The position numbers were made by a program, and so were the translations under genes. Shown here piece by piece: positions 43,512 to 44,684 of a stretch of DNA of 44,684 nucleotides. The stretch comes from Candidatus Gastranaerophilales bacterium (GTDB lineage: Bacteria; Cyanobacteriota; Vampirovibrionia; Gastranaerophilales; Gastranaerophilaceae): positions 1 through 44,684 of the forward strand of contig JAFVFO010000033.1 of assembly GCA_017475485.1 (NCBI GenBank). The letters run 5' to 3'. The notes beneath the pieces are model-generated. The model was given only the letters and a program-made list of their open reading frames with translations. It did no database searches and was not told the origin of the DNA. Positions within the stretch are counted from its first letter, which is position 1. The number at the start of each line of letters is the position of its first letter.

Positions 43512-43982
43512 GTGAAAAAGGTTTTTAGTATTCTTATAATATTACTCTTTGCTTCAAATGTCACTTTTGCGCTAAATTGGGTACAAATAAACGATAATTT
43601 ATATATTGACACCGACACTATCGAATATTATGTGGATAGATACGGCAGTAAAGATATAGATAAATACTCTTTTTGGGTTCAAAACATTAACAGTGGAAAT
43701 GAATATTGGAAAAAACTTGAAAATTCGCTTAAAAAAAATGGCGAAAAAAGAAAACCTGCATATACAAATTATAGAAATTTAATTGATTGCAAACAAAAAG
43801 TAATTACTACAAAAGCATTTATAACATATACAGAAAATGGCGAAGTGCTTGATAGTTTTGACCATAAATACCCCGAATGGAGCAGTATAGCCCCCGGTTC
43901 ATACGGAGAGTATTATTACAATAATATTTGTAAGCCAACTAAAACAAAGAAGGGTATTTCAAAATTTTTATTTGGCTCATAA
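43512..43982 (+). CDS. small exported protein, surface-adhesin-E-like
   Basis: A 156-residue protein with a signal peptide (residues 1-20, cleavage after TFA). It continues LNWVQINDNLYIDTDTIEYY and KDIDKYSFWVQNINSGNEYW. This start (W-x-x-I-x-x-N-x-Y-I-D-x-x-[TS]-I, then a beta strand with a charged turn) resembles the small exported domain of Haemophilus surface-adhesin protein E and relatives. Two cysteines (C93-like in DCKQK and C141-like in NICKP) may form a disulfide. It starts at GTG 43512 with an AAGGAA site. Function unknown; periplasmic or surface location inferred. Confidence 0.72.
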   Translation: MKKVFSILIILLFASNVTFALNWVQINDNLYIDTDTIEYYVDRYGSKDIDKYSFWVQNINSGNEYWKKLENSLKKNGEKRKPAYTNYRNLIDCKQKVITTKAFITYTENGEVLDSFDHKYPEWSSIAPGSYGEYYYNNICKPTKTKKGISKFLFGS

Positions 43983-44072
43983 TGAGCACAAACTCAGCAG
44001 GTAAGTATAACTAAAAGGCAATAGATAATGTTTTCAGAGAAGGGCCTTGTTTGTATATGCGATTTTACTATG

Positions 44073-44100
44073 TTGAAACTTATTATTTATTACATATAAT
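44073..44100 (+). promoter_or_regulatory. promoter of the last small gene
   Basis: TTGAAA (44073-44078) and TATAAT (44095-44100) are 16 bp apart, a good sigma70-type match. The predicted start near 44107 leaves a leader of about 16 nt holding GAAAGGA before the ATG at 44123. Confidence 0.62.
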
Positions 44101-44122
44101 ATAACAATAAGAAAGGAAAAAT

Positions 44123-44350
44123 ATGAGTATCGAAAAAATTTCAGAATGTTTAACATCTGCAACAAATAAAATACAAATTGCTGATACATCTAAAATTAGT
44201 GGCAATATAGCTTTTCAAAATATTAAATCACCTTTAAACAGTCTAAATCTTCCAACTACAACGGTTGATGTTTTTGAAAGACAAGGAAAAAAAGGGTTTA
44301 GCTTTATACAATTTTTAAAAACTGTGGTTAATGAATTATTTAATAAATAA
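44123..44350 (+). CDS. small unknown protein
   Basis: A 75-residue protein beginning MSIEKISECLTSATNKIQIAD and ending with a basic amphipathic segment (KKGFSFIQFLKTVVNELFNK). No signal peptide, membrane segment or known motif. It has its own promoter, a good GAAAGGA site and a strong terminator, so it is a real single-gene unit despite its size. It lies directly before the hairpin array at the right edge. Confidence 0.65.
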   Translation: MSIEKISECLTSATNKIQIADTSKISGNIAFQNIKSPLNSLNLPTTTVDVFERQGKKGFSFIQFLKTVVNELFNK

Positions 44351-44389
44351 TAGCTATTATGTATGAAAAATTAAAAATACAAGCACTAA

Positions 44390-44419
44390 AAAACCCTGTA
44401 GTTAATTCTACAGGGTTTT
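44390..44419 (+). terminator. intrinsic terminator of the 75-residue gene
   Basis: A perfect 12-bp stem (arms 44390-44401 and 44408-44419, core ACCCTGTAG) with a TTAATT loop and a T-rich 3' side. It lies 40 bp after the stop at 44350 and 25 bp before the hairpin array. Confidence 0.85.
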
Positions 44420-44444
44420 AATAATTTTGGAGTCAGCAATGACC

Positions 44445-44678
44445 TATGCCCTAATTTTCTTGTCGAGCTTTGCGAGACTTAGAAAATGGAAATGCCCTTG
44501 GGGTATGCCCTAATTTTGTAGGCGAATTTATGAGCCGTACAAAATGGAAATGCCCTTGGGGTATGCCCTAATTTTCTTGTCGAGCTTTGCGAGACTTAGA
44601 AAATGGAAATGCCCTTGGGGTATGCCCTAATTTTGTAGGCGAATTTATGAGCCGTACAAAATGGAAATGCCCTTGGGG
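44445..44678. repeat. tandem array of two alternating hairpin units (ABAB)
   Basis: Four units: A 44445-44503 (59 bp), B 44504-44561 (58 bp), A 44562-44620, B 44621-44678. The two A units are identical, as are the two B units, giving a 117-bp higher-order period. A and B share the flanks (TATGCCCTAATTTT at the start, AAAATGGAAATGCCCTTGGGG as a 21-base end of which the core is AAATGCCCTTGGGG) and differ only in a 24- or 23-bp centre. Both centres fold into the same hairpin with different stem bases. The junction ATGCCC/GGGTAT can form a second short stem. No ORF is seen. The window ends six bases after the last unit. Confidence 0.92.
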
Positions 44679-44684
44679 CACGAT

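Follow-up and report, generated by a model that had tools for sequence, protein, structure and literature searches.

Small palindromic repeats are common in bacteria, and many of them, such as the CGTC REPs, have no known mover. IS200/IS605 elements and their miniature derivatives have hairpin ends, follow a single-strand logic and leave no target duplication, and integron attC arrays run head to tail, keep their fold and show strand asymmetry. REP elements are short dispersed palindromes that present many variants of one fold; one account of them describes some REPs as inserted inside other palindromes and, in its treatment of the CGTC REPs, reports no dedicated transposase (Di Nocera et al. 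2013, PMC3733652). For E. coli TnpA-REP (RAYT), conserved stem mismatches are described as required for activity, with recognition of one strand (PMC8266576). Yeast mitochondrial GC clusters figure as tiny palindromic mobile units that undergo merging and shuffling by a mechanism presented as unsettled (PMC4478555).

The stretch of DNA analysed here (the window) comprises 44,684 nucleotides and represents one entire contig (G000:C56:1-44684) of a Candidatus Gastranaerophilales assembly of 1,723,961 bases in 66 contigs that is 89.67% complete. Within its final 240 bases lie four units, arranged as A B A B (Table 1). An initial annotation, made from the sequence alone, had described a tandem array of two alternating unit types at 44445-44678, and this array is real: TRF reports a period of 117 with 2.0 copies and 100% matches as well as a period of 58 with 4.0 copies, and a repeat search found the 117-nt copies starting at 44445 and 44562 to be identical, each composed of two 58/59-bp units. 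The exact 117-bp identity is consistent with the recent amplification of the AB pair that had been proposed. A 35-base stretch across the junction, AAAATGGAAATGCCCTTGGGGTATGCCCTAATTTT, is common to A and B, and their centres differ. The junctions read CCTA / TGCCC...GGGGTA / TGCCC...GGGGTA / ... GGGGCA / CGAT, head to tail and with no spacer, and coincide exactly with the insertion boundaries of other copies of the unit elsewhere (see below). The array of the initial annotation is confirmed; judged by these boundaries, its natural units begin 2 bases later than in the phase chosen there. In the second copy of unit B, the ending CA changes a G.T pair of the short 3' hairpin H2 to G-C.

Table 1. 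Coordinates of the array and its surroundings at the right end of the window; H1 and H2 denote the long and the short 3' hairpin of a unit.
Feature	Position	Strand	Basis
Terminator-like palindrome between the last ORF and the array: perfect 12-bp inverted repeat, 6-nt loop, A/T runs on flanks	44390-44419		repeat search
Left flank, ends CCTA; final A taken as target base	44430-44446	+	sequence; boundary deduced from the empty sites known for other copies
Unit A copy 1 (TGCCC...GGGGTA)	44447-44505	+	model match 44446-44505, 69.9 bits; DNA folding
Unit A copy 1, H1 (GA 44465-44466 facing GA 44474-44475)	44454-44487	+	DNA folding
Unit A copy 1, H2	44493-44505	+	DNA folding
Unit B copy 1	44506-44563	+	model match 44505-44563, 55.8 bits; DNA folding
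Unit B copy 1, H1 (GA 44524-44525 facing GA 44532-44533)	44513-44545	+	DNA folding
Unit B copy 1, H2	44551-44563	+	DNA folding
Unit A copy 2, same sequence as copy 1	44564-44622	+	repeat search, TRF, model match
Unit B copy 2, last two bases CA instead of TA	44623-44680	+	model match 44622-44680, 52.3 bits
CGAT, final 4 contig bases; right flank or start of unseen sequence	44681-44684		sequence

Since the contig stops 4 bases past the last unit, the exact number of AB pairs and the array length depend on the assembly. The exact ABAB order might in part be an assembly artefact of the contig end, with one A and one B, or many, at the true locus; copies some 50 bases or less from contig ends in three further genomes (G006, G007, and G018) fit such an origin, which we nevertheless hold to be improbable in view of abutting units in two other genomes. 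In G018 (L133), two full units abut without spacer and a third follows about 60 bases further, and in G102 (L071) a 5'-truncated unit is followed, again without spacer, by two full units with a small mutual difference. Tandem units as such are therefore real. The hairpin family may also account for some contig breaks in Gastranaerophilales assemblies.

The arm pairings given in the initial annotation are present in both units: in A, ATTTTCT pairs with AGAAAAT, GTC with GAC and GC with GC, in B, ATTTTGTA pairs with TACAAAAT and GGC with GCC, and GA faces GA in both. The one-base 3' bulge that it regarded as a shared trait is, by contrast, not conserved, and several family copies do without it. 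DNA folding gives A and B alike the long hairpin H1, which contains the GA facing GA, and the short 3' hairpin H2 (GCCC TTG GGGT), with z values of -1.8 for A and -2.1 for B (12/200 and 7/200 shuffles at least as stable). When folded as RNA, the 3' GGGG is taken up by the 5' CCC in place of H2 (z of -1.4 and -1.2; 16/200 and 22/200 shuffles as good). Taken singly, a unit surpasses chance mildly at most and, as single units fold only moderately better than their shuffles, the case for a structure rests on relatives.

Relatives were sought with R1, a covariance model of the unit built from five copies, using a first-look filter and scoring at most 92 candidates per genome. Full-length matches (E <= 1e-4) occur in at least 19 of 29 genomes of the genus Candidatus Gastranaerophilales, with at least 1-14 per genome, and none was found among the candidates scored in 30 other genomes, which gave at least nine weak matches, six of them to the hairpin part alone. 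Among the candidates scored in the source assembly, all matches fall in the array of the window, and two additional public genomes, G101 and G102, yielded 13 and 7 matches (E <= 0.1). A single unit (47 bits; L065/L248) lies near a contig start in a bin labelled Candidatus Paceibacterota, owing either to horizontal transfer or to misbinning. Two Sulfurovum genomes (L249, L254, and L263 in one, L250 in the other) contain a 27-base repeat of approximately TGCCCAT-TGGAAATGCCCTTGGGGTA that resembles the unit minus its main hairpin, by homology or coincidence, the first locus of each genome having been picked by an exact 17-base search. A phage or plasmid origin found no support: blastn returned no phage or plasmid match, a 23-base unit pattern matched no viral contig, and a 19-base pattern matched two viral contigs with weak, chance-like model scores. 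Searches of the literature on repeats and palindromes of Gastranaerophilales/Melainabacteria, on a CGTC-like palindrome sequence and on insertion without target duplication brought up no account of the hairpin family among the titles listed, and to this extent the family appears to be absent from print.

In a structure-fitted alignment of 92 matches (70 distinct), 93.7% of the cells are standard pairs versus 76.9% in shuffles, and 139 cells are double-changed versus 47.8. Because this first alignment was fitted to the structure, pairing was recounted for 66 distinct copies aligned with MAFFT without use of structure. Here, 96.7% of the cells are paired as compared to 83.3% in shuffles, and the 115 double-changed cells compare with 29.5 in shuffles, which do not keep relatedness, and with 4 to 26 after displacement of the partners by 1 to 3 columns, which does. 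The 66-copy set was hand-chosen: it leaves out exact duplicates, truncated matches, chimaeras (L196, L228, L234, L237, L243, and L244) and the weak Sulfurovum-type matches as well as ordinary full copies that are mostly low-scoring (e. g., L128, L139:1215, L187:695, L189, L190, L208, L218, L220, L235, L236, L264, and L272), most of the omitted copies being retained in the 92-match count. Unguided RNAalifold recovers the stem of H1, in which double changes affect 9 of 12 pairs. H2 is missing from this prediction, in which two 5' C are joined to the GG that follows the stem, but it covaries in counts on the given structure (C-G to U-A, among others). GA is found on both sides in 64 of the 66 copies in a loose count by position alone, and in 51 of the 66 when a stricter script also demands the surrounding pairing. 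The pairing at family level, unlike the fold of a single unit, exceeds chance. The view that the fold is kept while the sequence changes has thus held up: other copies were found, the arms of their aligned centres are complementary and H1 covaries. Outside the units, a loose H1 pattern gave 37 distinct matches; about 15 of these, at Gastranaerophilales-type loci (e. g., L010, L012, L013, L016, L122, and L125), have at least five outer pairs, whereas many of the others are chance-like, and H1 may be a wider module in its own right.

Covariation and a near-constant tandem GA are typical of RNA, and the units could conceivably be a structured RNA domain, that is, an optional arm of a larger transcript or mRNA tail whose RNA fold is selected and which spread only with its host repeats by recombination. 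That the covariation itself implies a selected RNA, one of the two readings given in the initial annotation, is not a conclusion that can be drawn, since covariation would equally arise in a mobile DNA hairpin that its own mobilisation maintains. Moreover, single units fold poorly as RNA in comparison to shuffles, the array of the window lies beyond the terminator-like palindrome, and no Rfam family reaches its gathering score in the window (over 43980-44684, all matches up to E 10 stay below it), nor did any family other than tRNAs in 12 loci of relatives.

Insertion boundaries were read from empty sites by joining the 16 bases on each side of a unit and seeking them in all DNA collected, allowing 3 mismatches at most per flank. 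The set was cleared of units below 50 bases, short flanks, duplicate flanks and sites adjoining another unit, and the pool of nine loci that repeat the window. An empty counterpart was found for 26 of 91 distinct contexts, and the gap between the flanks is exactly 1 base in 25 of these 26 (4 bases in the remaining one). This single base is the one preceding YGCCC in the filled copy in 20 of the 25 one-base rows, and only another base in five. Controls shifted by 75 bases to the left or right matched in 1/99 and 4/91 contexts, none with a 1-base gap. As judged from these comparisons of filled and empty sequences, the unit YGCCC...GGGGYR is inserted directly after one target base, without target duplication; at the main site of the mosaic repeat described next, the last base of the unit is G and the empty-site base A, and a 1-base duplication is possible at other sites. 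The left-flank site of the window itself gave no empty counterpart. The target-site duplication expected of a DDE-type MITE was not found, the empty site holding a single base in 25 of 26 contexts.

The hosts that exist in filled and empty versions are three unrelated sequences, which together stand for about five insertion events. One of them, a mosaic repeat, accounts for 22 of the 26 empty-site rows, and many copies can therefore be explained by spread together with this host. At its main site, the unit lies at GCGA^CGT and occurs in reverse orientation at the same ACGT (L007 versus L213), and at a second site a few bases on it lies at GTAGGA^TAATTG (L194 versus L218). The second host is the tail of a tRNA-Val gene, with filled and empty copies within one locus (L190), and the third the loop of a palindrome in G101, GTAGGTCGGCATTG^CCATGCCGAC, which is filled in L247, L256, and L267 and empty in L273. 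This dispersed palindrome (GTAGGTCGGCATTGCYATGCCGAC) starts with GTAG and is found with or without a unit in its loop (L247, L253, L256, L264, L267, L271, and L273), in a genome that has no Y1 transposase match. Most copies of the unit sit within a mosaic of other repeats. Further hosts, namely a tRNA-Leu tail (L133, L245), a CGTC-like palindrome (L187, L189), and a purine-rich hairpin (L191), lack an empty partner in the DNA searched. The units of L187 and L189 (G018) are located inside a palindrome resembling a CGTC-type REP (CCGTCATCCTGAGCAAAGCGA^AGAATTT), in whose hairpin, by eye, GA faces GA around GC...GC as in H1. In L135 and L191, units lie inside long outer inverted repeats of differing sequence (e. 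g., TTTTCTTTTTCTTTC...GAAAGAAAAAGAAAA), as if larger hairpins surrounded some copies.

By sequence, the units display what is generally expected of a mobile unit, the same ends in unrelated filled sites together with matching empty sites. The array in the window probably consists of copies of a non-autonomous mobile hairpin of about 58 bp, composed of H1 and H2 between YGCCC and GGGGYR ends, that inserts precisely after one base and without target duplication. A structured RNA domain would account for the fixed place within the mosaic repeat (22 of 26 rows), much like an optional arm, but hardly for the occurrence of units in hosts that are unrelated, for the two orientations seen at one site and for units that adjoin one another, and we regard it as unlikely.

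Several candidate target preferences were considered for such a mobile hairpin. Sites enclosed by at least 4 pairs amount to 48/75 as compared to a fraction of 0.597 of random positions, and sites in a hairpin loop to 20/75 as compared to 0.21, in a sample that omitted copies under 50 bases, flanks under 40, left flanks that are another unit, contexts more than 75% alike and the weak-match loci L249, L250, L251, L254, L257, L260, L263, and L273. With rates this near to random, hairpin loops were rejected as a general target, only the G101 palindrome being a clear loop target. Of 85 full copies, 19 have a tRNA at 500 bp or less, as compared to a fraction of 0.11 for positions drawn at random from these loci, a biased control; targeting of tRNA ends was dismissed as an explanation, as most full copies have no tRNA within 500 bp. 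No fixed 4-5 base target tag was found to the left of the insertion.

For the window gene at 43512-43982, three homologous matches were obtained, distributed over G007 and G014 of the same genus; the closest two are 39% and 34% identical, with one stop in the aligned frame. In G007 (C8), one hairpin unit follows the homolog near the contig end, and in G014 the homolog is followed by a convergent tRNA-Arg(UCU) with tandem copies of the tRNA 3' end. To judge from this arrangement, a tRNA, by locus L145 a tRNA-Arg(UCU) on the minus strand, might lie beyond the end of the window, which the comparison weakly suggests; tRNA-Arg(UCU) is not among the 19 tRNAs read in stretches of the source genome, an assembly from which many tRNAs are missing. 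More generally, tRNA genes whose 3' (or 5') ends are partly copied in tandem, in many cases together with terminators, were seen wrapped around short hairpin inserts, both in relatives (L123, L124, L125, L133, L145, and L190) and in the source genome (L168, L170, L173, L175, L176, L178, and L179). Some of these inserts hold, by eye, inverted copies of the tRNA end; upstream of tRNA-Asn in L178, an insert of about 57 bp is bracketed by a direct repeat of some 43 bp. These tRNA-end repeats recall the E. coli tyrT/rtT repeats, and those of Gastranaerophilales merit separate study.

Both the many nested hairpin repeats and the tRNA ends duplicated with inverted pieces (by eye), as template switching would make them, are what one would expect of a passive neutral repeat, functionless and without an enzyme of its own, which slippage and template switching at hairpins would generate and spread, and no candidate enzyme was indeed found. 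On the other hand, ends that are identical across hosts and a 1-base gap in 25 of 26 contexts are more regular than slippage products, and 64 of 66 copies keep both GAs; we accordingly give such an origin little credence.

The search for a mover of the mobile hairpin covered several enzyme families. Y1 transposase (PF01797) is absent from 28 of the 29 genus genomes and present in one, in assemblies that are incomplete, and was found in none of seven checked carriers (five of which are also among the 29). A classic REP/RAYT origin was rejected on account of this near absence from the genus and from the carriers and of the missing tag. Reverse transcriptase (PF00078) occurs in 12 of the 29 genus genomes and was discarded as the mover, as there is none in the source genome, G019, G021, and G022, the latter three of which carry several copies of the unit. 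ORFs at a distance of up to about 1-1.5 kb from copies were grouped by clustering, and inspection by eye of the 25 largest groups showed none that looked like a transposase common to many loci; the largest group (41 frames from 26 loci) consists of reading frames across the repeats themselves, and a XerC-like gene lies near copies in three loci. Head-to-tail order, strand asymmetry, a fold kept while its sequence varies and precise insertion would also be features of an integron-like, attC-type array moved by a tyrosine integrase on folded single strands. Yet there is no gene between the sites, no integron integrase (IntI, TIGR02249) scores above the curated cut-off in any of the 29 genus genomes, the matches below it being of a kind that all 14 control genomes also gave, and the attC R-box consensus was not seen by eye, which makes this explanation highly improbable.

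The mobile hairpin would most likely move as a folded single strand, or be copied in by template switching at hairpins. A fixed fold with changing stem letters and a near-constant GA/GA is what would be expected if a protein or process recognised the folded strand. Given that A and B differ, one unit presumably inserted beside the other, at the exact unit boundary, and the resulting AB pair would then have been duplicated by slippage or unequal exchange over the shared 35-bp stretch. The empty sites, in turn, could in part be losses.

The array is not a CRISPR, as had been noted early on, its centres being hairpins that recur within the family rather than variable spacers of outside origin. 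The further remark that no named element has this layout stands insofar as no exact family was found, but the general kind is known, namely that of dispersed bacterial palindromes, or REP-like elements. Tagged REPs (GTAG/CGTC) were excluded, as the units have no unpaired GTAG or CGTC (TGTC/CCTC) end; the GTAG of unit B lies inside a paired stem, and unit A lacks the motif. On these tests, the hairpin family is REP-like in kind and stands outside the tagged REP families. Like REPs (PMC3733652), it comprises short dispersed palindromes with one fold in many variants, some of them inside other palindromes, and its missing tag and transposase recall the CGTC REPs as presented there; it differs from REPs in its 58-bp unit with two hairpins, its YGCCC/GGGGYR ends and its direct head-to-tail arrays. 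Measured against a REP size of 20-40 bp at high copy, the unit is dispersed, but has 58 bp, two hairpins and at least 1-14 full copies per carrier.

Integron attC arrays share head-to-tail order, a kept fold and strand asymmetry with the units, which have, however, no cassettes and no integrase above cut-off. IS200/IS605 elements share hairpin ends, single-strand logic and the lack of target duplication, and the units differ from them in that no fixed 4-5 base target tag and no transposase were found. GA/GA is kept on one strand, which parallels the mismatches of TnpA-REP (PMC8266576), and by this analogy it could serve as a strand mark, although Y1 is absent from 28 of the 29 genus genomes. 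We tentatively raise the possibility, doubtful as it is at present, of a new class of bacterial miniature mobile DNA recognised by shape, with a folded strand marked by tandem G.A, free stem letters, clean insertion after one base without target duplication, stacking and nesting, and driven by something other than a Y1 transposase or an integron integrase. With sharp ends, filled and empty pairs, dispersal within a single genus and a possible strand mark, the family, whose units are tiny palindromes like the mobile GC clusters of yeast mitochondria (PMC4478555), makes the spread of tagless palindromes testable.
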